A stretch of 64,000 bases of DNA, taken from Eubacteriales bacterium (GTDB lineage Bacteria > Bacillota > Clostridia > Lachnospirales > Lachnospiraceae). Positions 3,850 to 36,740 of this stretch are shown in pieces (positions within the stretch are counted from its first letter, which is position 1; every line of letters begins with the position of its first letter). The stretch is from assembly GCA_030533385.1 (NCBI GenBank), contig JAUNJG010000002.1:34501-98500 (forward strand), given 5' to 3'. The notes under the pieces were generated by a model. That model saw only the letters and a list, made by a program, of their open reading frames with translations. It did not search any database and was not told the DNA's origin. The position numbers and the translations under genes were made by a program.

Positions 3850-3872
3850 GAGTGTGAAAGGACAGGGAAGCT

Positions 3873-6619: not shown

Positions 6620-6622
6620 TAT

Positions 6623-11435: not shown

Positions 11436-11446
11436 GAGGAAACGAA

Positions 11447-13292: not shown

Positions 13293-13443
13293 ATGCATAT
13301 TTCGGCATTGGCGTCAGCATTTGGAAATTCAGGGGACAGAATATGGATGGCATTTGATAAGATGACAGTCAGATTGCAAGATATCGCAGTGCAAAAACGA
13401 AGAATGAATGAGAGGCTTGGAATGTGAGATATCATACATAAAC

Positions 13444-13483
13444 TTTTCATGGATTTTACATTAGTTCGGTTTCGGACTTTACA
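13444..13483 (+). promoter_or_regulatory. Putative Pho-box array upstream of pstS
   Basis: TTTTCA (13444-13449), TTTACA (13455-13460) and TTTACA (13478-13483) are spaced 11 and 23 bases apart. This resembles the TT(A/T/C)ACA repeats with 11-bp phasing bound by PhoP in Bacillus. A similar and stronger array precedes the Na/Pi cotransporter gene (17734-17793), and a PhoB/PhoR-type pair is encoded in the same locus. Confidence 0.6.
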
Positions 13484-13555
13484 TAGAAGGATTAATCTAT
13501 GAAAGTAACACAGAAAAATACTTTATAAAGTCGAAATGTGTAAGTACAAAAAGTA

Positions 13556-13600
13556 AGAAAAGAAAAAGAAAAAGAAAAAGAAGAAGGAAGGAAAAATAGT
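13556..13600 (+). repeat. Homopurine A/G tract before pstS
   Basis: About 45 bases made almost only of A and G, with the unit AAAAAG repeated several times, end in the AAGGAAGG ribosome binding site of pstS. It could be prone to slippage or favour an unstructured leader. Confidence 0.6.
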
Positions 13601-13601
13601 T

Positions 13602-14483: not shown

Positions 14484-14496
14484 GGAGTGCTGACAC

Positions 14497-15351: not shown

Positions 15352-15353
15352 TT

Positions 15354-16271: not shown

Positions 16272-16299
16272 TAGATACAGGAGATTTGGAAGGAGTATT

Positions 16300-17058
16300 A
16301 TGTTAAATACAACGAAAATGATGATTGAAGACCTGGACTTATATTATGGACAGTTTCATGCGTTAAAGGATCTGTCTTTAAAGATTTATGAAAATGAGAT
16401 TACCGCTTTTATTGGTCCGTCCGGCTGTGGAAAATCCACGTTGTTAAAGTCTTTGAACAGAATGAATGATTTAGTAGAAGGATGTAAAATTACCGGAAAA
16501 ATAACACTCGACAACCAGGATATTTATCGGGGAATGGATGTGAACCTGCTTCGTAAGAGAGTGGGTATGGTATTCCAGAAACCGAATCCGTTTCCGATGA
16601 GTGTATATGATAATGTGGCTTATGGCCCAAGAACCCACGGTGTGCGTTCCAAGGCGAAACTGGATGAGATTGTGGAGGATGCACTTCGCAAGGCCGCCAT
16701 TTGGGATGAGTTAAAAGATCGTCTGAAAAAAAGTGCTCTTGGGTTATCCGGCGGACAGCAACAAAGACTTTGCATTGCCCGCGCACTGGCGGTACAGCCG
16801 GAAGTGCTTTTGATGGATGAGCCGACATCAGCTCTCGACCCGATTTCTACGATTAAGATTGAGGAGCTGGCCATGGAGCTGAAAAAAGATTACACGATTG
16901 TCATGGTTACACATAACATGCAGCAGGCAACCCGTGTGTCGGACAAAACCGTATTTTTCCTTTTGGGAGAGATTGTGGAGTCAGGTAAGACAGATGAATT
17001 GTTCTCCATGCCAAAGGATAAGAGAACAGAGGATTATATTACAGGAAGGTTCGGTTGA
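16300..17058 (+). CDS. pstB: Phosphate ABC transporter ATPase PstB
   Basis: A 252-residue ABC ATPase: Walker [17 protein letters not shown]-loop [21 protein letters not shown] (PstB-specific PNPFP), signature [15 protein letters not shown], Walker [14 protein letters not shown] and H-loop VTHNMQQA. It powers phosphate import by PstCA. The start follows GGAAGGAG; the stop overlaps the region of the phoU start. Confidence 0.97.
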
Positions 17059-17060
17059 TT

Positions 17061-17702
17061 ATGCGGATTCATTTTGATGACCAGTTGGAACAGCTTAACA
17101 AAGATATGATTGACATGGGCAGCCTGATTGAGAAAGCTATCGGTATGGCTGTGGAGGCGCTGATTCAGCAGGATGTGGAGAAGTCCCGCAAGGCCATGGA
17201 GTTTGATGATGAAGTTGACAGAAAGTATAGAGACATCGAGGGATTATGTCTTCGTCTCCTTCTTCACCAGCAGCCGGTGGCAACAGATTTGCGGACGATT
17301 TCCGCTGCTCTGAAAATGATAACCGATATGGAGAGGATTGGAGACCATGCCACGGATATCTCCGAACTTGCCATTGCCTTATCAGAAAAAGAGAGCATAG
17401 AGCAGTTTACCCATATTGAGCAGATGGCAAAAGAGACGATGCTTATGCTGATTCATGGAGTGGAAGCTTATGTGGAGCAGGATTATGATAAGGCGGTACA
17501 GGTAATCAATAATGATGATGTGATTGATGATCTGTTTTGTAAGGTCAGGGATGAAATCATAAATGTGATTCAGAGTAAGCCGGAAGTAGCCAGCCAGGCT
17601 GCGGATTTATTGATGGCTGCAAAATACTTTGAGAGAATTGGAGACCATGCCACAAACATCGCAGAGTGGGTCATTTTTTCAATCACGGGGAATAAAGAGT
17701 AA
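17061..17702 (+). CDS. phoU: Phosphate signalling complex protein PhoU
   Basis: A 213-residue all-helical protein. The ATG at 17061 follows AGGAAGG; a TTG six bases earlier is the only alternative. Two PhoU repeats carry the metal-binding motifs TDMERIGDHATDI and KYFERIGDHATNI. PhoU links the Pst transporter to the PhoR kinase and represses the Pho response when phosphate is plentiful. Last gene of the pst operon. Confidence 0.95.
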   Translation: MRIHFDDQLEQLNKDMIDMGSLIEKAIGMAVEALIQQDVEKSRKAMEFDDEVDRKYRDIEGLCLRLLLHQQPVATDLRTISAALKMITDMERIGDHATDISELAIALSEKESIEQFTHIEQMAKETMLMLIHGVEAYVEQDYDKAVQVINNDDVIDDLFCKVRDEIINVIQSKPEVASQAADLLMAAKYFERIGDHATNIAEWVIFSITGNKE

Positions 17703-17733
17703 CCTTTCTTTTGGCGTAAGAATTCCGAAAAAA

Positions 17734-17793
17734 TTTACATATATTTTACATAATGTTTCTTGCGATTTTACATAGTTATGCTAGATTTTTACA
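17734..17793 (+). promoter_or_regulatory. Pho-box array upstream of the Na/Pi cotransporter
   Basis: Four TTTACA hexamers start at 17734, 17745, 17767 and 17788, that is at offsets of 11, 22 and 21 bases, almost one helical-turn phasing throughout; each is followed by T. A TAAAAT at 17807-17812 could be the -10. This is the layout expected for tandem PhoP dimers. It is the clearest candidate regulatory site in the phosphate region. Confidence 0.72.
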
Positions 17794-17828
17794 TAGAATC
17801 TATATGTAAAATACAAAGGAGAGTTATC

Positions 17829-19634
17829 ATGGATTTTTTCGGGATTTTGACGATGGTTGGCGGCCTGGCGTTGTTCCTGTATGGGATGGATGCCATGGGA
17901 CAGGGGCTGTCTAAACTGTCTGGGGGAAGAATGGAACGGCTTCTTGAGAAGCTGACTTCAAAAAAAATAATGGCAGTATTATTGGGGGCTGGTGTGACTG
18001 CGGTCATTCAGTCTTCTTCTGCTACTACCGTAATGGTGGTAGGATTTGTAAACTCCGGGATTATGAAGCTGTCTCAGGCGGTAGGAATTATCATGGGTGC
18101 CAACATTGGTACGACTGTGACATCCTGGCTGCTTAGTCTTACGGGAATCGAGGGAGAAAGCTTCTTTCTTCAGCTTTTAAAACCATCCACCTTCTCGCCG
18201 ATTCTTGCGGTGATTGGCGTGTTTTTTATTATGTTCACGAAAGATGAGAAGAAAAAGGATGTCGGCCTTATTTTTGTCGGTTTTGCCATTTTGATGACAG
18301 GAATGGACACGATGAGTGGTGCGGTGAAGCCTTTGGCTGAGAACAAGAGCTTTACAAGTATGCTCACTATGTTCTCTAATCCGATTCTTGGCATGGTGGC
18401 AGGTGCGGTTTTGACTGCGGTGATTCAGAGTTCTTCCGCTTCCGTTGGTATTTTACAGGCCCTCTGCGCCACCGGAGCGGTGGGGTATAGCACAGCCATT
18501 CCGATTATCATGGGGCAAAATATCGGAACTTGTATTACGGCGATTATGTCCAGCATCGGAGCCAGCAAAAATGCAAAGCGGGCGGCGGCGGTGCATCTGT
18601 ACTTTAATCTGATTGGAACTATTCTTTTCATGGTCGTATTTTATGCAGTCAATGCTGTCGTGCACTTCTCGTTTATGGGGTGGGCAGCCAATGCTGCGGG
18701 CATTGCCGTTGTACACAGCCTGTTTAATGTGGCAGCAACTATTGTGCTGTTCCCGTTTTCCAGACAGCTGGAACGACTTGCCATCCTCACAATTCCTGAG
18801 AAAAAAAGCGAGGAAGAAGAACAGGCTGTTGATGCGCTGAGAAAGGATTTCGGACGTCTGGATGAGCGTTTCCTGAATAAGCCGGGATTGGCAGTCAATG
18901 AATGTCAGATTGTTGCTGTGAATATGGCAAAGAAGGCAAAAAAAGCTTTGGTAATGGCGATTGATCTTATAACCCAATACGAAGAAAAGACGGCGGACAA
19001 GGTAGTGAGGCTGGAGGAAGAGATTGATAAGTACGAAGATATTTTAGGTACTTATCTGGTCAAGCTTTCCGCAAAAGACCTCTCTCAAAAGGACAGCCGA
19101 AGACTGTCCATCATTCTTCATTGTATTGGTGATTTTGAGCGTATTTCCGACCACGCCGTGAATATTTTGGAGGCGGCAAAGGAGATGCATAATAAGGGAT
19201 TAAGATTCTCGGAGAAGGCGAGGGAGGAGCTGGCTATTTTCTCCAACGCAATTATAGAAATTTTGTCTTTGGCAGTGGAAGTGTTTGAGAGTGGAGACCT
19301 GGATAAGGCAAAAGAGATCGAACCGCTGGAGCAGGTTGTGGATTATCTGAATATGGAAGAAAAGCAGCGGCATATCAGCAGATTGCGTCAGGGCAAATGC
19401 ACGATTGAGCTTGGGTTTATACTCTCTGATATTTCCACGAATTTTGAGAGGGTGGCGGATCACTGCTCTAACATTGCCCTTTGTATTTTACAGGTGAACG
19501 AAGGTGTGTTTGATACACATGAGTATTTGAATTTATTAAAAGCAGACGATGATAAGTTCCAGAATGAATATCTGGAGTACAGTGAAAAATATACGTTGCC
19601 TGCCAGCACACATTCAACGAGCAGGCCGTCTTAA
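17829..19634 (+). CDS. Na/Pi cotransporter family protein with C-terminal PhoU-like domain
   Basis: A 601-residue protein; the start at 17829 follows AAAGGAG, since an upstream in-frame ATG lies inside the Pho-box array. The N-terminal half is a NptA/PNaS-type carrier with duplicated QSSSATT (QSSSATTVMVVGF) and QSSSASV (QSSSASVGILQAL) motifs and about eight membrane segments. From about residue 350 a cytoplasmic helical domain with FERISDHAVNI and FERVADHCSNI resembles PhoU. It imports phosphate, probably coupled to sodium. It has its own promoter next to phoU, separate from pst, and probably forms an alternative phosphate route under the same control. Confidence 0.93.
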   Translation: MDFFGILTMVGGLALFLYGMDAMGQGLSKLSGGRMERLLEKLTSKKIMAVLLGAGVTAVIQSSSATTVMVVGFVNSGIMKLSQAVGIIMGANIGTTVTSWLLSLTGIEGESFFLQLLKPSTFSPILAVIGVFFIMFTKDEKKKDVGLIFVGFAILMTGMDTMSGAVKPLAENKSFTSMLTMFSNPILGMVAGAVLTAVIQSSSASVGILQALCATGAVGYSTAIPIIMGQNIGTCITAIMSSIGASKNAKRAAAVHLYFNLIGTILFMVVFYAVNAVVHFSFMGWAANAAGIAVVHSLFNVAATIVLFPFSRQLERLAILTIPEKKSEEEEQAVDALRKDFGRLDERFLNKPGLAVNECQIVAVNMAKKAKKALVMAIDLITQYEEKTADKVVRLEEEIDKYEDILGTYLVKLSAKDLSQKDSRRLSIILHCIGDFERISDHAVNILEAAKEMHNKGLRFSEKAREELAIFSNAIIEILSLAVEVFESGDLDKAKEIEPLEQVVDYLNMEEKQRHISRLRQGKCTIELGFILSDISTNFERVADHCSNIALCILQVNEGVFDTHEYLNLLKADDDKFQNEYLEYSEKYTLPASTHSTSRPS

Positions 19635-24964: not shown

Positions 24965-25354
24965 GCAAATCTGTCAGGGGACATGACGCTTGCAGGAGAC
25001 GATAGTTTTCAGGCATAAGGTACGGGGTATGGAAATACAGAGTGCCTGCGAGGCGGAAGAGACATATCATTTTGTGTTGGCGTTCATTCGGCTCTACTGG
25101 CACGCCGTCACAAAAATTTTAAAAAATTTTGCAGATAAAGTTTGACTAATGATGGAATAAATTGTAAAATAAAATAAAAAATTACAGAAAAGAAAAATAA
25201 TGGTACAAAAAGCGCTGTCTCTTTTTGTGGAGATTTGGAGAGAGATGATGCCGCATATGGCCCGACAGGATGCTTTATATTGTAAATGGATCGGGTGTGT
25301 TCGGATGCGACCTGTCTGTCTAAATTGTGGGAGAGAATAAAGAAAGGAGAAAAG
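24965..25354 (+). other. Leader and promoter region of the kinase cluster
   Basis: After the preceding terminator, 24965-25141 shows no gene. A strong promoter lies at 25142-25170, and from about 25177 to 25354 runs an AT-rich leader of about 178 bases, ending in AAAGGAG. No riboswitch was recognised. Confidence 0.5.
25142..25170 (+). promoter_or_regulatory. Sigma-A promoter of the kinase/phosphatase/FHA cluster
   Basis: TTGACT at 25142-25147 and TAAAAT at 25165-25170 are 17 bases apart, in a very AT-rich stretch. It is the only clear promoter before the co-directional genes that run to 36615. Confidence 0.7.
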
Positions 25355-27508
25355 ATGAATATCAGCAAAGAAAGACATCGATGTCTTGGATGCATGGAAA
25401 TGTATCTCTCTTTTGATGAGGTGTGTCCCTACTGTGGGTATGCCAATGGCGCACCGCCGAAAGAAATGTACCATCTCGCTCCGGGAACCTGGCTGGAACA
25501 GCGATATCTGATTGGGAGAGTGCTTGGATTCGGGGGTTTCGGAATTACATATGTTGGATGGGATGATAAGCTAGAAAGAAAGGTGGCAGTGAAGGAGTAT
25601 CTGCCGGGAGACTGTTCCACCAGGATTCCTGGTTCTGAGGCGGTGACGGTGTTTGAAGGAGAAAAAGAAGAACAATATCACAAAGGATTTCAAATGTTCA
25701 TGGAAGAGGGGGAGAAATTGATGAAATTTCAGATGTTCCCTGCTATCGTAAATGTCTTTGACTGTTTGGAGGCCAACGGAACCGCCTATCTGATTATGGA
25801 ATATTTGGATGGATGCACTTTGAGAGAAGTTCTGGAAGAAAGAAAAAGGCTGGATATTGATGAGACGCTAAGAATGATGCTCCCTGTTATGAATGATCTG
25901 GAAAAGATTCATGAGGCGGGATTGATTCACAGAGACATTGCGCCGGACAATATTTTCATCACAAAAGAAAATAAGGTGAAGCTGCTGGATTTCGGTTCTG
26001 CACGCTATGTGACGTTGACACATAGCAAAAGTCTGAGTGTGATTATCAAGGCGGGATATGCACCTCCGGAGCAATACCAGTCTCACGGAAGACAGGGAAG
26101 CTGGACAGATGTTTACGGTTTGGCAGCGACGATGTATCGTATGTTGACGGGAATCCCCCCGGAAGATGCCATGGAAAGAATGGAAAAGGATCGTCTGGAA
26201 TTGCCGTCGAAAAATGGAGCGGATTTACTGAAAAATCAGGAGATTGCCCTGATGAACGCATTAAATACTGCTGTAGATAGCAGGACGGCCACGATGGGAG
26301 AGTTCAAAGCTCAGCTATTTTCAGAAGGAACGCTGACAAGGCAGAAAGATGAGAAAAGGGATAATCATAGCGGAAAAGGACTTCCTCTATTTTGGATGGG
26401 AACGCTGGCAGTCCTTTGTTTCTCCGCAGGAATGGGAGTCCTCTTTTTTTCCGGTTTCTCTCGAATAGGAGGGACTCCTCAGAAAAAGATGACGGCTCCC
26501 GCTACCGGACTGATAGGAAATTACAGAGGCTTTCTTTATGATGAGGTGGTAGAGGAAGCCAAAAAAAATGGAATTATACTGGAAATCGTCAATACAAGCA
26601 ACGAGGTGAACGGGGAAAAACTGACGGACGATACCATCGGTAAAATATTGAGTCAGATGCCGGAGGCAGGCACTTTTCCGAAAGACTGGGACGGAAAGCT
26701 CTCGGTGGTGGTCAGTGCCGGGACGAAGAAGAGTAAGGTGGGAAATTATGGAGGGTATTCTCTGGATGATGTGAAGGAAATGATGCAAAAAGAACATATT
26801 CTGCTGCAAGAAGGAGAGGAATTCTCAAGCAATATCATCAAGGGCTATGTGGCGGGCCAATCTTTTCCCAAGGGGGAGGAAGTGCCTGCGGGTTCTGCCG
26901 TCGTCGTAAACGTTTCTGCGGGAGAGGCAGACATAGACAAGACAAAGACGTTTCAGATGCCGGAGATGTCGGGCAAAACCTTTGGAGAGGCGCTGCAGCT
27001 GGCAGAAAGAAAGGGATTTTATGTGGGCATTTCGGAACACAGATACAGTGCGAAGGAGAAGAAGGGAACTGTTTGTGGTCAGTCGGTGCCGGCCAAAACG
27101 GAGAGCAGAGAAGGGACAGAAGTCTTTTTGGTCATCAGCGACGGGCCGGAGCAAAAGAACGTGCCGAATGTAATAGGACGAGAGCAGACAGATGCTGAAA
27201 AAGAACTGCAAGCACAAAAACTGAAAGTAAAAGTCGTCCATGATTACAATGATTCTTATGGTGCCGGATATGAAAAAGGCATCGTCATGGAACAGAGTAA
27301 AAAAGGAGGGACGACAGTGAACGAGGGAACCGAAGTTACGCTGACAATCAGCCGGGGTTCCGAACCGACGACACAGGAAAGAGCAACTAGGAGAAGCTCC
27401 GTTGGACGCGGCAGCAAAAAAACGACCCGGAATACCCAAAAGAAAAAGAGGAGACAGACTAAAGAATATAAGAAGAAATGGACGGATATCAAGCCGAGAA
27501 AGAAATAG
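25355..27508 (+). CDS. Membrane Ser/Thr protein kinase with N-terminal zinc ribbon and four PASTA domains
   Basis: A 717-residue protein; the start at 25355 follows AAAGGAG. A zinc ribbon (C10, C13, C24, C27) leads into a full kinase domain (about 48-325): glycine loop GFGGFG (58-63), VAVK with K80, HRDIAPDN (H192-D194), DFG (212-214), APPEQY and TDVYGLAATMYRMLTG. One membrane helix follows (about 344-366). The extracellular part contains four PASTA-like repeats, each ending in a VSAG, VISDG or ISRG strand, then a very basic Lys/Arg tail. PASTA kinases sense muropeptides or lipid II and phosphorylate cell-wall and division proteins. The zinc ribbon recurs in four other proteins of this cluster. 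Catalytic residues are all intact. Confidence 0.92.
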   Translation: MNISKERHRCLGCMEMYLSFDEVCPYCGYANGAPPKEMYHLAPGTWLEQRYLIGRVLGFGGFGITYVGWDDKLERKVAVKEYLPGDCSTRIPGSEAVTVFEGEKEEQYHKGFQMFMEEGEKLMKFQMFPAIVNVFDCLEANGTAYLIMEYLDGCTLREVLEERKRLDIDETLRMMLPVMNDLEKIHEAGLIHRDIAPDNIFITKENKVKLLDFGSARYVTLTHSKSLSVIIKAGYAPPEQYQSHGRQGSWTDVYGLAATMYRMLTGIPPEDAMERMEKDRLELPSKNGADLLKNQEIALMNALNTAVDSRTATMGEFKAQLFSEGTLTRQKDEKRDNHSGKGLPLFWMGTLAVLCFSAGMGVLFFSGFSRIGGTPQKKMTAPATGLIGNYRGFLYDEVVEEAKKNGIILEIVNTSNEVNGEKLTDDTIGKILSQMPEAGTFPKDWDGKLSVVVSAGTKKSKVGNYGGYSLDDVKEMMQKEHILLQEGEEFSSNIIKGYVAGQSFPKGEEVPAGSAVVVNVSAGEADIDKTKTFQMPEMSGKTFGEALQLAERKGFYVGISEHRYSAKEKKGTVCGQSVPAKTESREGTEVFLVISDGPEQKNVPNVIGREQTDAEKELQAQKLKVKVVHDYNDSYGAGYEKGIVMEQSKKGGTTVNEGTEVTLTISRGSEPTTQERATRRSSVGRGSKKTTRNTQKKKRRQTKEYKKKWTDIKPRKK

Positions 27509-27578
27509 AGAAAAGTACATCACGAAAAAGGAGACAGAGCAGGAAATATCCTAAAGACAGGGGAGACAGGAGGGAAAA

Positions 27579-27974
27579 ATGAGGAGAAGAGGCGGCATGA
27601 TGAAAAAATTTTTGATTATTCTTCTGGTGTTGACAGGAGGTTTTGCCATGGTAAAAGCGGAGGCCTTGGCCGGAAGAAGGATGCCAGGGATAAAGTTGAA
27701 AACCGCAAAGAGATATAAAAAGTATATCAAAGTAACCTGGGGCAGAAATACAAGGGTGGATGGATATAAAATTTATGCGGCGAAAGATAAAAAATTTCAT
27801 CATTGTCTCGGCGGAGTCAATGTGAAAGGTAATCATTATACAGAGTATAAAATTCGTGTGAATCAAAGGAAGCTGAAAAAGATGAGATATGTACAGATTG
27901 TCGGCTGGAAAAAGAAAAAAGGAAAAGTGTATCATACCAGACTGACGAGGCGTTCGATAAGAAAGGTAAAGTAG
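27579..27974 (+). CDS. Small secreted protein with FnIII-like domain
   Basis: A 131-residue basic protein, with start at 27579 after CAGGAGG (an ATG 21 bases later is also possible). A signal peptide (KKFLIILLVLTGGFAMVKA) is followed by LKTAKRYKKYIKVTWGRNT and VDGYKIYAAKDKKF, the pattern of fibronectin type III-like domains found in surface proteins of Clostridia. It ends in a Lys/Arg-rich segment. There is no sorting signal. It sits between two PASTA receptor genes, so a role as extracellular partner or wall-bound protein is inferred. It cannot be assigned further. Confidence 0.65.
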   Translation: MRRRGGMMKKFLIILLVLTGGFAMVKAEALAGRRMPGIKLKTAKRYKKYIKVTWGRNTRVDGYKIYAAKDKKFHHCLGGVNVKGNHYTEYKIRVNQRKLKKMRYVQIVGWKKKKGKVYHTRLTRRSIRKVK

Positions 27975-28054
27975 TTTTTCTCGTCGGAATCGTGGAAGGG
28001 ATGCGGCAAATTTTGGGATTGTAACGGTTTTTAGCTGATGAATGGAGGAAAGAA

Positions 28055-30232
28055 ATGAAAATAAGATGTATGGGATGTATGGAGGAATACGATTCTTATT
28101 TTGAGATATGCCCCCTGTGCGGTATGATGAAAAAACCCATGCGGCATCATGGATTCGGATTGAGGCCGGAAACGATATTGAACCAGAAATATATGGCGGG
28201 GGTACTCCTTGATTGTGATGACAGCACAACGACTTATATTGGATACGATTTGATGAACCTAAGGAAGGTCATTCTCAATGAGTATGAAGCATTGCCTGAA
28301 ATTGCCCCGCAGTTTTTTCGCGTGAGAATTCCGGGGTTGTTTCAGGTGTACGATACCTTTTCACAGGGGGCGAAATGGTATGTCGTCACAGAGTATGCCT
28401 CCGGCATCGCACTGGGACAGCGCATGATAGCGGAAGGGAAAATGAGCATGGAAAGGGCGCTTGAATTCATGATGCCCGTCATGGAGATATTAAACCGGAT
28501 GCACAGTCGGGGAATGTACCATTTGAGGGTCAACCCCAATGCAATTTTTCTTACAGAAAATGGGGAAGTCAAGTTGATGGTTCCGGGGGTGTACCAGTCT
28601 GTCATCGGTTCACATAGAAGAAAAAATGTTTTGTCAGAAGAATCTTTTTATATGGCTCCCGAGGTGAAGGAGGCAAAAAGGAGCGAAAGGGAAAAATCGG
28701 ATGTGTATAGCGTGTGCGCTGTATTTTATAAGATACTCACCGGAGAAGTTCCTGTCAAAGGAGCGGTGAGAGAGTGGGAGGAGGCTCTGGACGTATCAAA
28801 AAAGAGAGGAGAGATTCTCTCGGAATCTCGAAAAAATATTTTGATGAACGGCTTGCTGTTTCGGCAGGATGCTGAGACGGGGAGCATGAAAAAGTTGCTT
28901 TGGCAGTTTTCGTCCATCAGGACAATAAAAAGAGAAGGACAGACGGAGAAAGCAAGCGAGGAGAAAAAAAGAGAAGACACCCGGGAAGAACTCTGCGGAT
29001 ACCATCAAGAGGGCGAGACGCATATGGAAGAGGGGAAAAAGATAAAGAGGAAAAGAGAGGAAAGATTGCCGATGACCCTGGGATTTTTTCTTGTGTGCGG
29101 GATTGTCATCGTCGCTGTTACCAGATTTTGGTGGAGTGGCCAGACGGAGAATGTGGGGAAGAAAATAACGCAAGAGGCGTTTTCCTCCTATGTGCCAAAT
29201 CTCATCGGCAGTAATTATGAGAGGGCAAAAAAGGAAGCAGACATAGAGATAATGGATAGATTAAATGATGAGAAAAAGGCAGGAGACATATTGAAGCAGG
29301 TGCCGGAGCCGGGAACAGTGTTGCAGGAGAACCAGAAAATAAATGTGATTGTCAGTGCGGGGAGTCAAAAGGTGTCTCTAAAGGAGGCGGTAGGAATGGT
29401 CAGAGGTCGTGATAAAGAGGAAAAGATGGAAGAAGCCGGATTCCTCATAAAGAAAGAGGAAGTGGAGAGCAACATTCTTCCGGGATATGTTGTTTCCGTC
29501 GAGAGGGAGGAGAGAGGGGAAATTCCCCGAAAGATTGTGTTATCAGATGCAGAGTATGCAGATTATGAAATTCCAGCGGGCTGTTCCATAATGGTGGAGG
29601 TTTCCTCGGGGACGGAGAGGGTTGACAATAGAGATGTATCACTTCCTCCGGCCGAAAAATTGCTGGGAGAAAGCTTTGAGTCTGTATTAGAGCAAGCTGA
29701 AAAAAATAATTTTTATGTCGGTCTATGTGAGGAGACGGAGTATTCTCTGGAAATTCCTGCAGGGAAAGTCTGCGGAATCAAAAAGATAAAAAGCAGACCG
29801 AAAATAGACTACAAAGATGCCGTTTTGGTGACGTTAAGCAGGGGATTGCGGTCGTTTCATGTGTCCGCCTGTAGGGGAGAGGTGGAACAAAAAGTAGAAC
29901 AAATGTTAAAAAAATATAATATAAAAATTGAAAAGAAAAGGGAATACAGTAACGTTGATGCGCCGGGAACGGTGATGAAAGCATATGCGAATTGTAAACA
30001 TAAGACCGATGAGGTGGAAAAATGGGGGGAAGGAGAGGTTCACTGGGGAGATGAAGTGACGCTTGTTTTGAGCAGAGGATCGGAGCCAAAAACGGCAAGA
30101 AAAATAGAGACGATTCCGCAAAAGCCGTCGGGGAATTCCGCAGAACCCCAAAAAGAAGGAGGACGGAAAAAACAAAATCAGCGTTCGCGCAAAAAGAATC
30201 CGTCCAGGCCGGACGCCTTAAAAGACAGGTAG
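28055..30232 (+). CDS. PASTA-domain membrane pseudokinase with zinc ribbon
   Basis: A 725-residue protein with the same architecture as the kinase at 25355: zinc ribbon (C5, C8, C19, C22), kinase fold (about 38-300), membrane helix (about 345-365) and four divergent PASTA-like repeats ending in VSAG, VSSG and LSRG strands. The active site is dismantled: no glycine loop (VLLDCDDSTTTYIG), the VAVK lysine replaced (VILN, residues 72-75), HRD-PxN reads YHLRVNPN, and DFG is replaced by MVPG. APE and SDVYS of the C-lobe remain. It is therefore most likely a non-catalytic regulator, perhaps an allosteric partner of the flanking kinases. The length and intact frame argue against a decaying pseudogene. 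Confidence 0.85.
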   Translation: MKIRCMGCMEEYDSYFEICPLCGMMKKPMRHHGFGLRPETILNQKYMAGVLLDCDDSTTTYIGYDLMNLRKVILNEYEALPEIAPQFFRVRIPGLFQVYDTFSQGAKWYVVTEYASGIALGQRMIAEGKMSMERALEFMMPVMEILNRMHSRGMYHLRVNPNAIFLTENGEVKLMVPGVYQSVIGSHRRKNVLSEESFYMAPEVKEAKRSEREKSDVYSVCAVFYKILTGEVPVKGAVREWEEALDVSKKRGEILSESRKNILMNGLLFRQDAETGSMKKLLWQFSSIRTIKREGQTEKASEEKKREDTREELCGYHQEGETHMEEGKKIKRKREERLPMTLGFFLVCGIVIVAVTRFWWSGQTENVGKKITQEAFSSYVPNLIGSNYERAKKEADIEIMDRLNDEKKAGDILKQVPEPGTVLQENQKINVIVSAGSQKVSLKEAVGMVRGRDKEEKMEEAGFLIKKEEVESNILPGYVVSVEREERGEIPRKIVLSDAEYADYEIPAGCSIMVEVSSGTERVDNRDVSLPPAEKLLGESFESVLEQAEKNNFYVGLCEETEYSLEIPAGKVCGIKKIKSRPKIDYKDAVLVTLSRGLRSFHVSACRGEVEQKVEQMLKKYNIKIEKKREYSNVDAPGTVMKAYANCKHKTDEVEKWGEGEVHWGDEVTLVLSRGSEPKTARKIETIPQKPSGNSAEPQKEGGRKKQNQRSRKKNPSRPDALKDR

Positions 30233-30244
30233 TGAGGAGGAAAT

Positions 30245-31210
30245 ATGAAAAAGATAGGCAAATTGATACGGATAGGGCTATTTGGCATGATATGCATGAT
30301 GATAGCTGCAACGAAGGCGGAAGCAACAGCGGCAGAGGGCTTGGAAAGGAGGGTGGCAGGATTTGACCTGTCCGCAGAAACGATGACCATGGATAAGGTC
30401 AATCAGGCGAAGGCAGTCATTGCAGAGTATGACGCACTTTCGGTGAAAGAGCAAAGAGCATTGAATGTGGAGACGAGGGAGAAGATTTTGTCGGTCAGAA
30501 AGGGCATAAACGATGTGTTTCGTTGTGGACCGGAAGCTTGGTATCGTTATAAAGATGGAGTGCTGACTGTTTTTGGCAGAGGAGTTTTGTACGATTACAT
30601 AGAAAATTTTGACGAGAAAAATTTAGAAAATGATGTGAGAAAGCGCTCTTATCAAAACTATGCTTCTGATACAAAGAAAGTGGTGATAGAGGATGGAATT
30701 ACCAAAATCGGGAGAGGTGCTTTTGCCTGTTTTTCCGGCATGGAAGAACTTCAGATTCGGAGAAGACAGACGAAAGTAATCATAGGGAAAGCGGCTTTTT
30801 TTGAATGCACTAATTTAAAAATAATTTCCATGAAAAATGTGAGTGCCATCGAATTTTGTGGGTTTGGCAAATGTAAAAAATTAAAAAAGGCAGACTTGCC
30901 GGAGGGGCTTGTCTCTGTTGGAAAATCTGCATTTTTGGAGTGCGTCGGTCTAAAAATGGTCGTTTTTCCCGTCTCTTTGCGAAAGGTGGGAGATTATTGT
31001 TTCTTTGGGTGTAAGAGGCTGTCTGTTGTGGAGGAAAAAGGCAGAGTGAAACAATGTGGAAAATTTATATTTTATGAGGCAAAGAAAAAGGGAAAAGTGA
31101 TATGCCGGTCAAAAAAGGCTGCCCGATCTACATTTGTGAAAAAGGCGAAGGCATCCGGGTGGAAGATATTGCCAAAAGGCACAAAGAAAGGAGTACATAC
31201 AGGAAAATAA
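30245..31210 (+). CDS. Secreted leucine-rich-repeat (BspA-type) protein
   Basis: A 321-residue protein with a signal peptide (hydrophobic residues about 8-22, ending near ATKAEA). After a helical region of about 80 residues come LRR_5-type repeats: VVIEDGITKIGRGAFACFSG, VIIGKAAFFECTNL, LPEGLVSVGKSAFLECVGL and VSLRKVGDYCFFGCKRL. These repeats form extracellular binding surfaces in many gut Firmicutes. A basic tail follows; no anchor is seen. It starts 12 bases after the pseudokinase stop and 19 bases before the next kinase, so it is almost certainly in the same transcript. It may be a ligand or co-receptor of the kinases. Confidence 0.78.
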   Translation: MKKIGKLIRIGLFGMICMMIAATKAEATAAEGLERRVAGFDLSAETMTMDKVNQAKAVIAEYDALSVKEQRALNVETREKILSVRKGINDVFRCGPEAWYRYKDGVLTVFGRGVLYDYIENFDEKNLENDVRKRSYQNYASDTKKVVIEDGITKIGRGAFACFSGMEELQIRRRQTKVIIGKAAFFECTNLKIISMKNVSAIEFCGFGKCKKLKKADLPEGLVSVGKSAFLECVGLKMVVFPVSLRKVGDYCFFGCKRLSVVEEKGRVKQCGKFIFYEAKKKGKVICRSKKAARSTFVKKAKASGWKILPKGTKKGVHTGK

Positions 31211-31229
31211 AGGAGATGAGAAGAAGAAA

Positions 31230-33257
31230 ATGGTGGAAAAACGTTGTTTGAATTGTTTTAAAGAATATGGTGGCGAGTATGAGGTATGTCCTCATTGTGG
31301 ATTCGTGGAAGGGACTCCTCCGAAAGAATTATACCATTTGCATCCGGGGGAAATGTTACATAAAAGGTATCTTGTGGGTACTGTAATTGGATACGGAGGG
31401 TTCGGCATCATTTACCGGGTGTGGGATGACCAGATGAGGCAGATTGTGGCGGTGAAAGAATATTTTCCCGGAGGACTGGTCAACAGGACGCCGGGTGAGA
31501 GGGAGGTTGTCGTATACTCGGGAAACAATCGTGATGTTTTTGAGGCGGGACTGGAAAGATATATGTTGGAAGCGAGAACTATGGCGGCTTTTTCTCATCC
31601 GAACATTGTCCGTCTGTTTGACTATTTTGAAGAAAATAATACGGCATATATTGTGATGGAATTGCTGGACGGCATTTCTTTAAAGAAATTTTTGCTCCAA
31701 AATGGAGGGAAACTGTCGATAGAAGACATGAAATCGGTGATTCTGCCGGTTTTGGATGCTCTGGGAGAAATGCACAGCCACAATATTATTCATCGGGACG
31801 TCAGTCCGGACAATATTTTTTTATGTGTTGGGCAGACCATCAAATTAATTGATTTCGGCGCCGCAAGGTTTTCTGATTCTCAGAAAGAGAAACAATTTTC
31901 TGTCGTGCTAAAGCCCGGATATGCTCCTCCGGAGCAATATAGAGGAAAGAGCCGGCAGGGAAGTTTTACGGATATTTACGCAGTGGGGGCCTGCATGTAT
32001 CGGATTCTTACGGGTGTCATGCCGGAAGAATCCTTGAACAGAATGATGGAAGATAGATTAAAAGAACCGGGAGAGTTGCTGCCTGACTTGCCTTCAAATA
32101 TAAACAATATCATTTTGAAAGCGATGGCCCTTTCCGTAGAATACCGTTTTCAGACCGTCTTTGAAATGAGGGACGCTCTGGAAGGAAAGGAAACTGTTAT
32201 TTCTTATAAAGCAGAACTGAAAAAACGAAAAGCAAGAAGAAAAGTGATGACGGTTCTTGGGATTTGCGGTGCAGCGGCAGTGTGTGTGACAACATATTTT
32301 TTCATTGTTTATCACACTAGGTTGATTCGGGTGAGAGAATACACAAAAGAAATATATTTTTATGTCCCGGAAAGTCAGACGGAATATTATGAAGCCATTG
32401 AAAAAGATTTTGAGACAGATAATGCGAGAGGGGATATTTCCATTGTGAGCGTGCCGGAATCGTCCTATAAATCAGAGGTGTTGCGGAATGTAGGAGGGGA
32501 GAAGGCGGCGGTTCTCTTTTTTAGCGACGGGTTTGAGGAAGGAGAGCTGGACATGGCAGAGAGTTTAAAAAAGCCGGTCATCGACAAGCTGGAAAATCTG
32601 GAATCCCGTTTTTATTATCTCGATGAGTATTATAAATATGAAAAAAATTATACAAGGCTTCCGCTGAGCTTCTCTGTGCCAATTATTGTGGAAAATAAAA
32701 AAGCAGGGAAAACTATGGGCGTCCCGGTGCGAACAGCAGGAGATTTTGCCTTGAAAAAGAAGAAAAAAGGGAAGGCGTCTTTATATAAAGTAAAGGATAC
32801 GGTGGCGATGCAGGTGCAGGCTCTTGCCATTGATGAGCATCAGATTTCAGCGGGGGAAGAAGGATTGACGGCCTTTCTGGATAACAGGCTGGCCTATTAT
32901 GTTACAGACTGGCAGGAATATAAGCAGATGATTACCAACGTGGTAAAAGTGGATCTGGATATTTTGTATCCGGCAGAAGGGACGAAGCTGGAAGCAAGGC
33001 TGGAAGATTATGTGAGCATTTCGGAGGAGGCGGACATGCAGGCGAAAATGATTGCCGAAGATTTTGTCCAGTACATCATCAACAGCCAGGCAGCCTATCT
33101 TCCCAAGCAAAGTAAGGATGTGTTTCCGATTAACAGCCAGGCGATGGAAGTGTTTTCTGATATCTGGATTTTAAGTCTTGCATCTTCTGTCAATCAAGAG
33201 GAAACTGGAAAGGCTCAATTCATCCATTATCTGCATCGGTGCAGTCCGATGGAGTAA
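31230..33257 (+). CDS. Ser/Thr protein kinase with zinc ribbon and solute-binding-protein-like ectodomain
   Basis: A 675-residue protein. Zinc ribbon: C6, C9, C20, C23. Kinase domain (about 45-320): GYGGFG loop, VAVK (K76), HRDVSPDN (188-195), DFG (208-210) and APPEQY. One membrane helix lies at about 339-361. The extracellular 310 residues open with IYFYVPESQTEYYEAIEKDF and continue through AAVLFFSDGFEEGEL, FSVPIIVENKKAGKTMGVPV and a C-terminal AKMIAEDFVQYIINSQAAYL. This resembles type 1 extracellular solute-binding proteins used as sensor domains; it is not PASTA. It therefore probably senses a small soluble ligand. Catalytic residues are intact. The ectodomain assignment is from pattern only. 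Confidence 0.82.
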   Translation: MVEKRCLNCFKEYGGEYEVCPHCGFVEGTPPKELYHLHPGEMLHKRYLVGTVIGYGGFGIIYRVWDDQMRQIVAVKEYFPGGLVNRTPGEREVVVYSGNNRDVFEAGLERYMLEARTMAAFSHPNIVRLFDYFEENNTAYIVMELLDGISLKKFLLQNGGKLSIEDMKSVILPVLDALGEMHSHNIIHRDVSPDNIFLCVGQTIKLIDFGAARFSDSQKEKQFSVVLKPGYAPPEQYRGKSRQGSFTDIYAVGACMYRILTGVMPEESLNRMMEDRLKEPGELLPDLPSNINNIILKAMALSVEYRFQTVFEMRDALEGKETVISYKAELKKRKARRKVMTVLGICGAAAVCVTTYFFIVYHTRLIRVREYTKEIYFYVPESQTEYYEAIEKDFETDNARGDISIVSVPESSYKSEVLRNVGGEKAAVLFFSDGFEEGELDMAESLKKPVIDKLENLESRFYYLDEYYKYEKNYTRLPLSFSVPIIVENKKAGKTMGVPVRTAGDFALKKKKKGKASLYKVKDTVAMQVQALAIDEHQISAGEEGLTAFLDNRLAYYVTDWQEYKQMITNVVKVDLDILYPAEGTKLEARLEDYVSISEEADMQAKMIAEDFVQYIINSQAAYLPKQSKDVFPINSQAMEVFSDIWILSLASSVNQEETGKAQFIHYLHRCSPME

Positions 33258-33423
33258 GACGGAAGGAATGGGAAGGGCAAGGTGGGTTGCTTCTGATATG
33301 CCGTTGGCGGAAACAGGGCTGCGAAAATACAGCTTTAAAAAATGGGGGAAGATAGAAACGAGGGATATTGCATTTTGCCGCAGCACAGGATAGCGGCGAC
33401 AATGAAGATTTTGGAGGAAAGTT

Positions 33424-34335
33424 ATGATTACATTTGCGCAGTTATCAGAGACAGGAGGGCGAAAAGTGAATGAGGACAGCGTAGGATTTGTCGATGTCGG
33501 CCCGGAGATCAGAATGTTTGCATTGGCGGATGGACTGGGCGGTCACGGAAGAGGAGAAGATGCTTCGTCATTGATTGTCCGGGAGGCTGAGGAAACCTTT
33601 CTTCTTAATTATCAGAAGGAAAACTGTCTGCATCTTTGTTTCGAGGAAGGACAGAGGGCGCTGCTGCAAAAGCAGGAGGAGGAGAATGCAAAGGAAGATT
33701 TAAAGAGTACTATGGTTCTGCTGACGATTTGCAATGCGAAGATTCAATGGGGGCATGTGGGAGATTCCAGACTGTATTATTTTGAGGACAGGCATCTGGT
33801 GAAGAGAACGATGGATCACAGTGTTCCTCAGATGCTTGTCAATGCAGGGGAGCTGAAAGAGAGAGAAATTCGGCATCATCCGGATAGAAACCGGTTGCTG
33901 CGGGTGATGGGGATGGAGTGGGAAGTTCCTCAATACCAGATTTCCCCGCCTCTTTTCATGCATACCGGAGAAGAAAGTCGTCAGTTTTTACTTTGTTCTG
34001 ATGGTTTTTGGGAATATATTACGGAAATCCAGATGGAATCTTGTTTACAAAAGGCGGAAACGGTGCAAGACTGGCTAAAAAAGATGGAAAAGATCGTCCT
34101 GGTCAGCGGGAAAGGAGCCAACATGGATAATTTTTCAGCGATTGCGGTGTGGATGTTCGAGGATGATGAAAGGGGTGAGAAAAAATGGGCAGAATTGTTC
34201 AATGCAACGGTGGGCACTACTACGATGCCGAAAAATTTGAGACCTGTCCGCACTGTGTGGAGGGGGAGGAAGAATCTGATCGGAAGCAGGAGAAGGAGTT
34301 CAGGGAAAGTTTGGATGCCAAGCCAACAGCCGTGA
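33424..34335 (+). CDS. PP2C-type Ser/Thr phosphatase
   Basis: A 303-residue cytoplasmic protein. PP2C motifs: RKVNEDSVG (metal-binding Asp), ADGLGGHGRG, the GHVGDSRLYYF strand, CSDGFWEYI and DNFSAIAVW. It would reverse phosphorylation by the cluster's kinases. The recognisable domain ends near residue 245 (VWMFEDDE); the last 50 residues are Arg-rich and unlike the family. This tail is encoded by 151 bases that overlap the start of the next gene in another frame. The overlap begins at a run of six A (in GAGAAAAAATGG), where one extra A would fuse the phosphatase in frame to the FHA protein. The C-terminus is therefore uncertain. Confidence 0.85.
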   Translation: MITFAQLSETGGRKVNEDSVGFVDVGPEIRMFALADGLGGHGRGEDASSLIVREAEETFLLNYQKENCLHLCFEEGQRALLQKQEEENAKEDLKSTMVLLTICNAKIQWGHVGDSRLYYFEDRHLVKRTMDHSVPQMLVNAGELKEREIRHHPDRNRLLRVMGMEWEVPQYQISPPLFMHTGEESRQFLLCSDGFWEYITEIQMESCLQKAETVQDWLKKMEKIVLVSGKGANMDNFSAIAVWMFEDDERGEKKWAELFNATVGTTTMPKNLRPVRTVWRGRKNLIGSRRRSSGKVWMPSQQP

Positions 34336-34862
34336 AACATATTTTCGGAGGGAATCGAAGATTTAGGAAGAAGACAGAGGTTGGGCTGATAGAGAAGCCA
34401 CCGATGGAGAATCTGAGGAGGAATGTTACGGAAGAAATGCTTCAGGTACAGAAAAAAGCGGCGGAGCAAAGGGGAGAAAGGGAGGAAGATGTGACTTTCC
34501 GCTATGAGTTGGAAGAAAGTGGATTGGAGCCGGTGACAGGCTGGCTGGTGTGCGTCAGTGGGAAGGAAAAGGGAAAGGATTACCGAATTGAGGCAGGATT
34601 TAATTATGTGGGAAGAGGGAGAAAGATGGATGTTGTTCTCTCCGATGATTTGTCTGTTGCCAGGGAGAGGCATTGCGCCATTGTTTACGATAAGAAATCA
34701 AACGAAACTTTTCTGACGCCGGGAAAGGGAGCTGAGACATACTATAAAAAGAAGCTGGTGACAAAACCGGTGAAGATTTATTCTGGAGATGAAATAGAGC
34801 TGGGGGAGACAAAATATATATTTATCAGTTTTTGTGAGGGAGGACGGTCTTGGGAAAAATAG
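34185..34862 (+). CDS. FHA domain protein with N-terminal zinc ribbon
   Basis: A 225-residue cytoplasmic protein. The N-terminus CNGGHYYDAEKFETCPHC (C7, H11, C21, C24) matches the start of the second FHA protein at 35947, which supports this start although it lies inside the phosphatase gene. After a charged linker the FHA domain (about 110-215) reads GWLVCVSGKEKGKDYRI, YVGRGRKMDVVLSDD and SVARERHCAIVYD. FHA domains bind phosphothreonine, so this should recognise products of the kinases. The ribosome binding site is AAAGGGG at moderate spacing. Its end overlaps the next gene by 13 bases. Confidence 0.85.
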   Translation: MGRIVQCNGGHYYDAEKFETCPHCVEGEEESDRKQEKEFRESLDAKPTAVKHIFGGNRRFRKKTEVGLIEKPPMENLRRNVTEEMLQVQKKAAEQRGEREEDVTFRYELEESGLEPVTGWLVCVSGKEKGKDYRIEAGFNYVGRGRKMDVVLSDDLSVARERHCAIVYDKKSNETFLTPGKGAETYYKKKLVTKPVKIYSGDEIELGETKYIFISFCEGGRSWEK

Positions 34863-35806
34863 GAAGGCGGGTAACGGGATTCTTTTTATTGTTTTTTCAT
34901 TTGAATAAGGAAAAGCCGGGGATGGTGACACGGATAGAGGTTGGGAAAGACAACTCTTCGTGGAGAAAAGAAGAATCTGAGGCATGGCAGTGCGAAATTG
35001 TTGCGAAAGATCATCCGAAATATAAAGTTGTGGGACATCTCAGCACTGTGGTGGGAACGAGGGCAAATCAACAGGATGCTTGTTATGTCAGTGTAGAGAA
35101 AGATAGCAATGCCATCGGAGTCGTGTGTGATGGTATGGGAGGGATGTGGGGCGGAGAGATTGCCAGCCGGGTTGCCCTGCAAACTTTTGTGGAAGATTTT
35201 GAAGGGGTGCGTTACAGGGAAAATGATTTTTATAACTTTTTTTGCGAGGAGATGAAAAAGATAGATCAGATAGTGGCAGATTTGGAAGACGACGGAGGGC
35301 GGGCTTTGTCAGCCGGAACTACTTTTCTGGCTGCTTCCATCGTGGAGAACCGGCTTCGGTTCGTGTCAGTGGGAGACAGTAAATTATACATCATACGAGG
35401 AGAGAAGATACAGTGTGTGAACCGGGAGCACAATTATCTCATGTTATTGAAAGAGCAGTATCAGAGGGGAGAAATTACGGGGGAAGTGTTTTGGCGGGAA
35501 AAGTCGAAAGGAGCTGCCTTGATTAGTTATCTTGGAATGGGAAATGTGGATATGATAGATGTAACACCCCGGTGCTTTCGGCTTAGAGAAGGAGATATTG
35601 TAGTTTTGTGCAGCGACGGGCTGTACAAGGCCTTGACAGAAGATCAGATTTTGGCGATTGTAAGAAAAAATCCCATCCATCTGGAAAAAACCTTGCAGGA
35701 GCTTCAGACAGAAGCGAAGACAGCCTCGGGGATATCTCAGGATAATACGTCCATCGTGATGATGTCCTGTCGGAGAAATGCAGACAGGGCCGGTTGGACG
35801 GTGTGA
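34850..35806 (+). CDS. PP2C-type Ser/Thr phosphatase, second copy
   Basis: A 318-residue protein. TTG at 34850 has a strong GAGGGAGG site six bases upstream; an ATG at 34922 with AAGGA is the alternative and would remove a hydrophobic patch (FFLLFF). Motifs: GTRANQQDACYV, VVCDGMGGMWGGEIAS, SVGDSKLYIIRG, LCSDGLYKALT and SQDNTSIVMM, giving all metal-coordinating Asp residues. It is only distantly similar to the first PP2C, so the two are not a recent duplication. It overlaps the FHA gene by 13 bases, suggesting coupled translation. Confidence 0.88.
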   Translation: MGKIGRRVTGFFLLFFHLNKEKPGMVTRIEVGKDNSSWRKEESEAWQCEIVAKDHPKYKVVGHLSTVVGTRANQQDACYVSVEKDSNAIGVVCDGMGGMWGGEIASRVALQTFVEDFEGVRYRENDFYNFFCEEMKKIDQIVADLEDDGGRALSAGTTFLAASIVENRLRFVSVGDSKLYIIRGEKIQCVNREHNYLMLLKEQYQRGEITGEVFWREKSKGAALISYLGMGNVDMIDVTPRCFRLREGDIVVLCSDGLYKALTEDQILAIVRKNPIHLEKTLQELQTEAKTASGISQDNTSIVMMSCRRNADRAGWTV

Positions 35807-35946
35807 AAAAGCGGATAAAAAAGAGCGGCACGATTGGATGTGTCCGGATACTGATACCCGCCTTGTGCAGGCAGTCCTATATCTGAATATTTGGGTAGAC
35901 AAAACATAACGATTCCCAAGAGGATGAGGGAGGGGAGGAAAACGGA

Positions 35947-36615
35947 ATGAATTTAACGAGATGCAGCAATGGACATTTTTATGATATGGAAAAATTTCAA
36001 AATTGTCCCCATTGCTCCCACAGACAAAATATTTCGCAGGAGAATGTCTCTGCCGCATTCGGGGATAAGATAATGCCGAAGGATGGAGCGGCGGAGGAAG
36101 ATGGCATTTTAGAGGTGGCGAATATAGACTGGTCAAAAAAGGACGCTTCTGTTATCAATGCGGGGAGTGATCAGGTGGACGACGATTTGCAAAATCCTGA
36201 CGGGGAGAAGACAATCGGGATTTTTATGTTGAATCATGATAAAAAAGAAAACATCAATCCGGTAACCGGATGGCTGGTGTGCGTCAGGGGAGAAGAGTTC
36301 GGGAAAAGTTATCCGTTGAAAAGCGGGAGGAATTTTATCGGAAGAGATTGTTCCATGGATGTGGTGATTGGAGGAGACAAAGCCATCTCAAGGAAATGTC
36401 ATGCAGTTATCTTGTACGATCCAAAGAGCAGGATGTTTCTGGTTCAGCCCGGAACGTCGCGGGAATTATTTTATCTCAATGATAAAGTTGTTCTCGGAGG
36501 AGAACCTATTGGGGCTTATGAGATTTTGACTGTCGGAAATACAGAGTTGATGTTGATTCCGTGCTGTGGAGAGAAGTTTACCTGGGAGGAACAAAGAAGA
36601 AAGAGTGAAAAATAA
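35947..36615 (+). CDS. FHA domain protein with N-terminal zinc ribbon, second copy
   Basis: A 222-residue protein starting after GGGGAGG. Zinc ribbon CSNGHFYDMEKFQNCPHC (C6, H10, C20, C23), an acidic linker of about 80 residues, then an FHA domain: GWLVCVRGEEFGKSYPL, FIGRDCSMDVVIGGD, AISRKCHAVILYD. It has the same layout as the FHA protein at 34185 but with diverged linkers. It binds phosphothreonine by family knowledge. It is the last gene of the block; 140 bases without a gene separate it from the second phosphatase. A hairpin follows its stop. Confidence 0.88.
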   Translation: MNLTRCSNGHFYDMEKFQNCPHCSHRQNISQENVSAAFGDKIMPKDGAAEEDGILEVANIDWSKKDASVINAGSDQVDDDLQNPDGEKTIGIFMLNHDKKENINPVTGWLVCVRGEEFGKSYPLKSGRNFIGRDCSMDVVIGGDKAISRKCHAVILYDPKSRMFLVQPGTSRELFYLNDKVVLGGEPIGAYEILTVGNTELMLIPCCGEKFTWEEQRRKSEK

Positions 36616-36616
36616 A

Positions 36617-36660
36617 AAGGGCATCCTGGGGGATATTGCATTTCCCCGGATACCCTTCTT
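36617..36660. terminator. Hairpin terminator between FHA gene and feoAB
   Basis: AAGGG(C)ATCC with GGAT(A)CCCTT, plus an inner GGGGGA/TTCCCC stem, close a 7-base loop. On the minus strand it is followed by a T-rich run, so it fits termination of feoAB transcripts; on the plus strand the T-run is poor but it directly follows the FHA gene. Confidence 0.6.
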
Positions 36661-36740
36661 AAAAAAGAGAGAAAAGTATGAAAAAATCTATGACTATCAA
36701 AACATGTTCCCTTGTTTTGATGAGTTTAGTATACACTACT

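Follow-up and report, generated by a model that had tools for sequence, protein, structure and literature searches.

A block of nine genes at positions 25355-36615 encodes two Ser/Thr kinases, a pseudokinase, two PP2C phosphatases, two FHA proteins and two secreted proteins. It lies in a 64,000-nt stretch (the window) of contig JAUNJG010000002.1 from a Lachnospiraceae genome, assembly GCA_030533385.1 (2.7 Mb, 92% complete; G000, contig C108). With moderate confidence, we read this block as a trimmed form of a conserved cassette of Clostridia for transmembrane Ser/Thr phospho-signalling, in which kinases would write on Thr, FHA domains would read the mark and PP2Cs would reset it. This reading builds on gene content, conservation and colinearity, on the predicted folds of a kinase ectodomain and of the pseudokinase, on a conserved Thr motif and on a probable deletion scar.

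All nine open reading frames (ORFs) lie on the plus strand and are open, and the gene inventory of the original prediction was borne out. Its statement that the block holds the full parts list of a Ser/Thr kinase circuit was confirmed by Pfam for eight genes. The first gene (25355..27508) encodes a transmembrane kinase with Pkinase and four PASTA stretches, and the third (28055..30232) a Pkinase-PASTA pseudokinase. Between them lies a gene for a small protein with a signal-peptide-like N-terminus (27579..27974), for which Pfam gave no match. These are followed by a secreted BspA-type leucine-rich repeat (LRR) protein (30245..31210, LRR_5), a kinase with an ectodomain (31230..33257, Pkinase), PP2C a (33424..34335, PP2C_2), FHA a (34185..34862, FHA), PP2C b (ORF from 34850, PP2C_2; probable extent 34922..35806) and FHA b (35947..36615, FHA). 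The block is compact as claimed; its gaps, given as mostly 0-75 nt with the largest at 140-166, were measured as 70, 80, 12, 19, 166 and 140 nt, and two pairs overlap: PP2C a runs 151 nt into FHA a, and the ORF at 34850 overlaps FHA a by 13 nt. Within 11.3 kb the block holds 3/6 Pkinase matches, 2/5 PP2C_2 matches and 2/4 FHA genes of the whole genome, the FHA tally consisting of three six-frame Pfam matches plus 35947, which that scan had missed.

To place the block among its relatives, we examined 79 loci drawn from the best 80 of 461 named-genome matches to an alignment of the 31230 kinase, hereafter the solute-binding-protein (SBP) kinase. They are thus a best-scoring sample; the labels come from a custom annotation and many contigs are cut. 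An SBP kinase was labelled in 67 loci (a count that is not independent, as the loci were found through this kinase), a PASTA kinase in 62, a pseudokinase in 23 and a kinase-FHA fusion in 18. PP2C genes were present in 61 loci (at least two copies in 47) and FHA genes of any kind in 63, among them ribbon-FHA in 43, VWA-FHA in 19 and FHA-ABC in 8. SBP kinase, PASTA kinase, PP2C and FHA occurred together in 44/79. In these loci, all 482 genes with a label share the strand of the query kinase, and from one labelled gene to the next the gap has a median of 14 nt (n = 412). The loci come mostly from Lachnospiraceae and other Clostridia, with one from Coriobacteriia (L106) and one from a Prevotella metagenome-assembled genome (L141), which may be a binning error.

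A survey of 392 genomes of the class gave a similar picture. Ribbon kinases were found in 44 and ribbon-FHA proteins in 39; 25 genomes had both, at most 8 kb apart in 23 of these, while 19 had a ribbon kinase only and 14 a ribbon-FHA profile match only (Fisher p 5e-18, without correction for kinship). Scattering of the homologues in related genomes had been named as a possible refutation, and the check shows that the neighbourhoods stay together. Judged from these comparisons, the block therefore behaves as one conserved system and not as a local oddity. The accompanying claim that the combination is not described as one system stands in part: in the open-licence literature we recognised no paper describing this cassette, while kinase, PPM phosphatase and FHA genes have already been reported in T7SSc-T7SSj loci, according to the portion of PMC11217815 available.

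Other genes accompany the cassettes. Of 29 interstitial genes, 20 were scored as having hydrophobic N-termini; the measure is crude, and a prepilin peptidase present twice is among those it counts. A choline-binding-repeat-like protein is found in 17/79 loci (Pfam-confirmed in L104), and TadE-like genes, identified by pattern, adjoin two. Response-regulator-like genes lie within three cassettes (L106:12337-13065, with LytTR and receiver domains by Pfam; L097:21876-22577; L081:17568-18299), and proteins similar to them form a 17-locus cluster near cassettes.

Alternatively, the cassette could be what a type VII secretion system (T7SS) left behind when its secretion genes were lost: the regulatory half, whose job would be to gate an EssC-type ATPase by phosphorylation. 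WXG100-like or EssC-like genes are indeed found near 11/79 cassettes; in eight of these an EssC-like ATPase is among them (phmmer E at most 1e-97). With NCBIfam, EssC was the best match on all four contigs tested, passing the cut-off on two, the other two being cut fragments, and two of four tested WXG100-like proteins passed theirs. In L108 and L115 the WXG100-like gene ends 6 and 18 nt 5' of the first PP2C, and in the T7SS-linked loci L081, L088, L101 and L121 the FHA label falls on EssC itself. In print, T7SSe combines a kinase with a PPM phosphatase and a DUF6382-FHA protein (PMC11217815, in part). However, 68/79 loci have no T7SS-type gene in the flank examined, many of these contigs being cut, and only one of the 23 pseudokinase-bearing loci is T7SS-linked. 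No EssC above cut-off occurs in the source genome (WXG100 was not searched genome-wide), and among the three cassette-bearing sister species only one, G206, has such a match. We consider this origin unlikely. The cassette resembles T7SSc-T7SSj in that kinase, PPM phosphatase and FHA genes stand together, yet T7SSe, as far as the available text describes it, has one kinase and one phosphatase with its DUF6382-FHA protein, and the main text of PMC11217815 contains none of the words zinc, PP2C and PASTA.

The five kinase-fold and FHA proteins all open with a Cys/His ribbon, as had been described, though the first ligand pair of the FHA proteins is C-x3-H (CNGGH, CSNGH) and not CNGH. The predicted ribbons lie at 25382-25435 (ligands C10, C13, C24, C27), 28067-28120, 31245-31298, 34203-34256 (C7, H11, C21, C24) and 35962-36015. 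The idea of a single shared module was not upheld, as two types were found: the kinase ribbon is of the CxxC type with GCMEEY...CPxCGY-like residues, whereas the FHA ribbon has C-x3-H in CxNGHxYD...CPHC (63/74 FHA ribbons) and different conserved neighbours. A docking surface common to the ribbons is therefore a guess. Among the cassette kinases that could be judged, the ribbon was found in 72/72 SBP kinases, 70/72 PASTA kinases, 15/15 kinase-FHA fusions, 34/41 other kinases and 29/29 non-canonical kinases, some of the last being partial domains. It was found in 74/96 soluble and 0/79 membrane FHA proteins, and the genome's own PrkC has none. The ribbons thus go with the cassette system, and their distribution in these sequences fits soluble readers that meet the kinases. 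Two ribbon-first proteins with neither kinase nor FHA label follow a T7SS-linked cassette in L107 (11980-12609 and 13932-14534) and are possible free ribbon adaptors; in L111 (Clostridium asparagiforme, 1826-18396) the SBP and PASTA kinases are surrounded by several proteins that begin with a CxxC...CPxCG ribbon.

In the ribbon-FHA proteins, the linker between ribbon and FHA domain carries the motif acidic-K-T-[VI]-[SG]-[YFI]. Its Thr is present in 33/36 aligned rows; of the 79 linker columns (median conservation 27%), only one is more conserved. It is preceded by acidic residues and often Lys (19/36), followed by V/I, S/G and Y/F/I, and the +3 residue is hydrophobic in 33/33 Thr-bearing rows. 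A pattern for this motif matched 48/74 ribbon-FHA proteins (0.0 by shuffling), 0/20 soluble FHA proteins without ribbon, 1/52 membrane FHA proteins, 0/120 PP2Cs, 3/72 PASTA kinases and 0/665 neighbours; as it was derived from ribbon-FHA rows, it is the contrast with the other groups that is informative. A third pattern matched 47/74, with the Thr at a median of 16 residues N-terminal to the FHA start. In the window, the corresponding residues are T104 of FHA a (34494-34496) and T89 of FHA b (36211-36213, in DGEKTIGIF). This Thr is a candidate phospho-acceptor that looks like the switch of the kinases. The FHA residues themselves are largely kept (Arg in 34, Ser in 29 and His in 32 of the 36 rows), all three in FHA b. 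When the 36-row profile was compared with solved structures, GarA entries, Rv1827 included, ranked first in the PDB. ReoM/IreB was tried as a motif parallel and dropped, since the genome's own IreB homologue begins MGRNNTQFF, which is too loose to use.

The catalytic residues are intact in both kinases (25355 and 31230). For 28055, the pseudokinase call was borne out: in the hidden Markov model alignment the catalytic Lys falls in a gap, and R, A and V replace the HRD Asp, the Asn and the DFG Asp, respectively. Its Gly loop is degenerate, and the predicted model has only a 5-residue helix where alphaC is expected. With a kinase fold that lacks catalytic Lys, HRD Asp and DFG Asp, it belongs to the pseudokinase class. 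The proposed binding-protein sensor of 31230 is backed by its fold, which Pfam did not detect. The ectodomain (32310-33254) was modelled by AlphaFold2 with a predicted local distance difference test score of 91, and its best PDB matches are family-1, sugar-type SBPs. Foldseek gave E values of 1e-12 to about 1e-10 for GacH, MalE and UgpB, template-modelling scores by query of 0.5-0.7 and whole-chain root-mean-square deviations of about 5-8 Å, placing the predicted structure among bilobal SBP folds.

That the block is simply a local duplicate of the housekeeping PrkC/PrpC genes and forms no dedicated circuit appears highly improbable. The kinase domains and PP2Cs are related to the PknB and Stp1 models, and a canonical PrkC-PrpC-RsgA locus is present elsewhere in the genome (contig C130). 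The C130 kinase and PP2C score 543 and 268 bits against the Stk1/PrkC model NF033483 (cut-off 450 bits) and the Stp1/IreP model NF033484 (cut-off 230 bits), but the three kinase-fold proteins of the window reach 296 (25355), 157 and 187 bits and its PP2Cs 154 and 134 bits, all below these cut-offs. Moreover, the ribbons and the Thr motif track the cassette, and SBP kinases and kinase-FHA fusions group apart in kinase-domain trees. In a check for anti-phage defence genes, PADLOC, whose output carries no cut-offs, returned many kinase-domain matches (best to the PD-T4-6 and mad6 models), one weak match to PP2C a and no match for the remaining five block proteins.

In all three kinase-domain trees the kinase-FHA fusions form one clade (support 97-99). 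The SBP kinases formed one clade of 9 rows (99) in one IQ-TREE tree and one clade with a long intruder (26 rows, 98) in the other; L050 and L105 (fragments or very long branches) were omitted from the latter, and L059, L136 and L056 in addition from the former and from the approximately unbiased (AU) tests. In a 238-row FastTree tree, the SBP, PASTA and pseudokinase labels required 5, 11 and 7 changes, respectively. These trees suggest that the kinase slots are largely separate lineages. Quick trees placed the four-species pseudokinase clade of the window beside the PASTA kinases of the genus and a 14-row clade elsewhere, which suggested repeated origin; the AU test does not reject a single clade (p 0.61 with 18 rows, where the tree with one clade even scored better; p 0.295 with 21 rows), and the pseudokinases may have arisen once or several times.

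We searched 24 genomes of the genus for the pseudokinase. Kinases matched in all 24, and strong ribbon-bearing orthologues were found in three besides the window. The three sister loci are colinear with the window but longer. Their order, known mainly from G206 and G211, is membrane FHA, PASTA kinase, secreted protein, pseudokinase, LRR, membrane FHA, SBP kinase, membrane FHA, two-FHA ABC transporter, PP2C, ribbon-FHA, VWA-membrane-FHA, ribbon kinase-FHA, PP2C and ribbon-FHA (this last gene observed in G207 and G211); more kinase genes follow. In G206, the first membrane FHA has WG repeats, the FHA after the LRR gene has DUF4234 and no secreted protein stands between PASTA kinase and pseudokinase; its FeoB gene and the cassette are on different contigs, and the place of the cassette may differ. 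For eight of the nine block genes, clear sister orthologues stand in the same order as far as the sister contigs reach, the LRR protein occupying the same slot in all three species. The small secreted gene 27579 has a weak match in G211 only (31% over 91 aa, to a protein without Pfam match), and its slot in G207 holds an fn3 protein. G207 has another such stretch on a 5-kb contig (C176, L050), where pieces of PASTA kinase and pseudokinase lie in broken frames. A horizontal island was considered and found no support: the GC content of the block is 45.0% vs 46.2% for the window, and the SBP kinase matched 18 plasmid records, none at 80% coverage.

In the sister species, the VWA-FHA gene begins within the 3' end of FHA a. 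At the junction at 34850, which our scar inspection covered, the window bases from TTG 34850 still resemble a signal-peptide start and read straight into PP2C b. PP2C b thus probably starts at ATG 34922, and the codons that open the frame at TTG 34850 have the look of a scar, a probable remnant of the VWA-FHA signal-peptide start (34850..34903, plus strand). Because the colinear sister loci are longer and this remnant persists, the window is best read, from the comparison of these sequences, as derived by deletion, with the signalling core retained and the membrane readers and transporter gone; the opposite history, a gain in the relatives, is less likely.

Deletion also invites the explanation that the block is a decaying relic, a partly deleted island with an inactive kinase on its way out. 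Besides the probable scar and the membrane FHA, VWA-FHA, kinase-FHA and exporter genes missing relative to the sisters, PP2C a has lost its stop codon: orthologues in the three sister species stop at 242 aa, and in the window homology ends at about 34155 while the ORF continues into the FHA gene. The pseudokinase diverges fastest, with 31-33% identity to its orthologues vs 43-65% for kinases and PP2Cs. Decay is nevertheless improbable in our view, given that all nine frames are open and that both kinases retain their catalytic residues and both PP2Cs their metal Asp. The HRD Asp is gone from the pseudokinase in all four species of the clade, yet ribbon, transmembrane segment and PASTA repeats are kept over its 725-codon frame.

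Several points weigh against the reading of the block as a trimmed but working signalling cassette. The lost stop codon and the deletion could each mean decay, and the SBP kinase count depends on how the loci were found. The Thr motif is not universal: 26/74 and 27/74 ribbon-FHA proteins lack a match to the first and third patterns, and an alternative pattern matched 34/74 ribbon-FHA, 2/22 soluble FHA without ribbon and 0/79 membrane FHA proteins. The spacing of about 16 residues between Thr and FHA domain is close for binding in cis. GarA, OdhI and DgcB bind a phosphorylated tail Thr through their own FHA domain, which lies C-terminal to it (excerpts of PMC6733907 and PMC8546545). In the accessible part of PMC6733907, these tails have hydrophobic residues at -3 and +2 and Ser at +1, and +3 is stressed for FHA self-tails. 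The cassette proteins share the conserved Thr N-terminal to the FHA domain (33/36 rows), but their flanks differ except at +3: -3 is hydrophobic in 1/33, +2 in 4/33 and +1 is mostly V/I. The N-G of GarA in the loop before Y-x-N of the FHA domain was found in 0/36 ribbon-FHA rows, and the profile alignment does not put the tail Thr of GarA on the motif column. The parallel with GarA/OdhI is therefore one of layout and not of aligned residues. In FHA a of the window, Ala replaces the conserved Ser and the acceptor sequence (REEDVTFRY) is shifted, and neither FHA protein reaches the NCBIfam OdhI cut-off of 200 bits (FHA a 18.8 bits, FHA b no match). Finally, the ligands, the phosphorylation event, the binding of phospho-Thr by FHA and the roles of pseudokinase and ribbons are points that we infer.

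Among the closest known systems is the actinobacterial pathway of GlnH (binding protein), GlnX (membrane protein), PknG (kinase) and OdhI/GarA (PMC8546545, in excerpt), which also combines binding-protein input, a Ser/Thr kinase and an FHA protein with a Thr N-terminal to the FHA domain. In the same excerpt, a rubredoxin-like domain is described beside the kinase core of PknG in mycobacteria and most of the other actinobacteria. Here, in contrast, binding protein, transmembrane segment, ribbon and kinase form one chain, a ribbon replaces the rubredoxin and no TPR was found. Unlike OdhI/GarA, the cassette FHA protein has its own ribbon, the motif DDxKT[VI][SG][YF] instead of ETTSVF and a Bacillota host. 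With PrkC/PrpC (Stk1/Stp1) the cassette shares a PASTA kinase, a PP2C and the PknB-like fold; it differs by scoring below the curated cut-offs and by having ribbons, several kinases and FHA readers. The two-FHA ABC transporter beside the kinases of the sister cassettes recalls PknF-Rv1747 (PMC3908365, in part), although the window block has no transporter. As a membrane kinase-fold protein that has lost its catalytic motifs, the pseudokinase resembles bacterial pseudokinases such as EssB in what is available of PMC12599244, whose section headings name only ActPs1-3, GLW, CP1, DYD and DLHK; compared by description, it differs in its PASTA ectodomain, its ribbon and its slot between active kinases. 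Elsewhere in the same genome, a second phosphosignalling locus (C94:787-14747, L055) has a weak DO-GTPase2 match, a membrane FHA, an FtsW/RodA-like protein, a PP2C, a kinase and a weak VWA_4 match, and is reminiscent of the systems built around a GTPase, with kinase, PP2C and vWA, outlined in part of PMC7159879.

Upstream of the block, a promoter-like site on the plus strand (25142..25170) is a 10/12 consensus match only, in a region where 27 such sites were found vs 17.2 expected. The terminator scan gave 17 hits vs 8.9 expected and no plus-strand terminator after 36615. A hairpin seen by eye (AAGGGCATCC...GGATACCCTT, 36616-36665) 3' of the last FHA gene is absent from the list of that scan.

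Taken as a working circuit, the block would operate as follows. The 31230 kinase may sense the outside through its SBP ectodomain, probably an oligosaccharide or other small solute, and the 25355 kinase through its PASTA repeats, probably peptidoglycan fragments. PknB-family kinases form dimers, and the PASTA pseudokinase may therefore pair with the kinases as a non-catalytic receptor subunit, most likely modulating the PASTA kinase. The secreted LRR and small proteins could act outside as partners or ligands. The receptor kinases would phosphorylate the linker Thr (T89 of FHA b, T104 of FHA a), helped to meet the soluble readers by the ribbons on both sides, and the FHA domain would bind the phospho-Thr in cis or on a neighbouring copy and switch the targets it holds, by analogy with GarA/OdhI. 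The two PP2Cs would erase the mark and reset the switch. In the sister species, likely targets include the membrane FHA proteins and the two-FHA ABC exporter. As the window lineage appears to have lost these genes by deletion, its readers would have to act on others.

This signalling belongs to a familiar general type (Hanks kinase, PP2C, FHA); the architecture and the specific candidate residue are new, above all the conserved Thr motif ahead of the FHA domain in ribbon-FHA proteins. More tentatively, and as a possibility to which we give somewhat less credence than to the cassette itself, we suggest an undescribed receptor-kinase relay in which SBP and PASTA kinases with a pseudokinase write one Thr on self-reading ribbon-FHA adaptors, plugged across Clostridia into T7SS, FHA-ABC exporters and perhaps Tad pili. 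If true, Clostridia, including gut and rumen species, would gain a modular Ser/Thr system that signals from outside to inside and whose substrate residue is defined, and the roles of uncharacterised kinases, of a receptor pseudokinase and of phosphorylation at T7SS loci would become directly testable.

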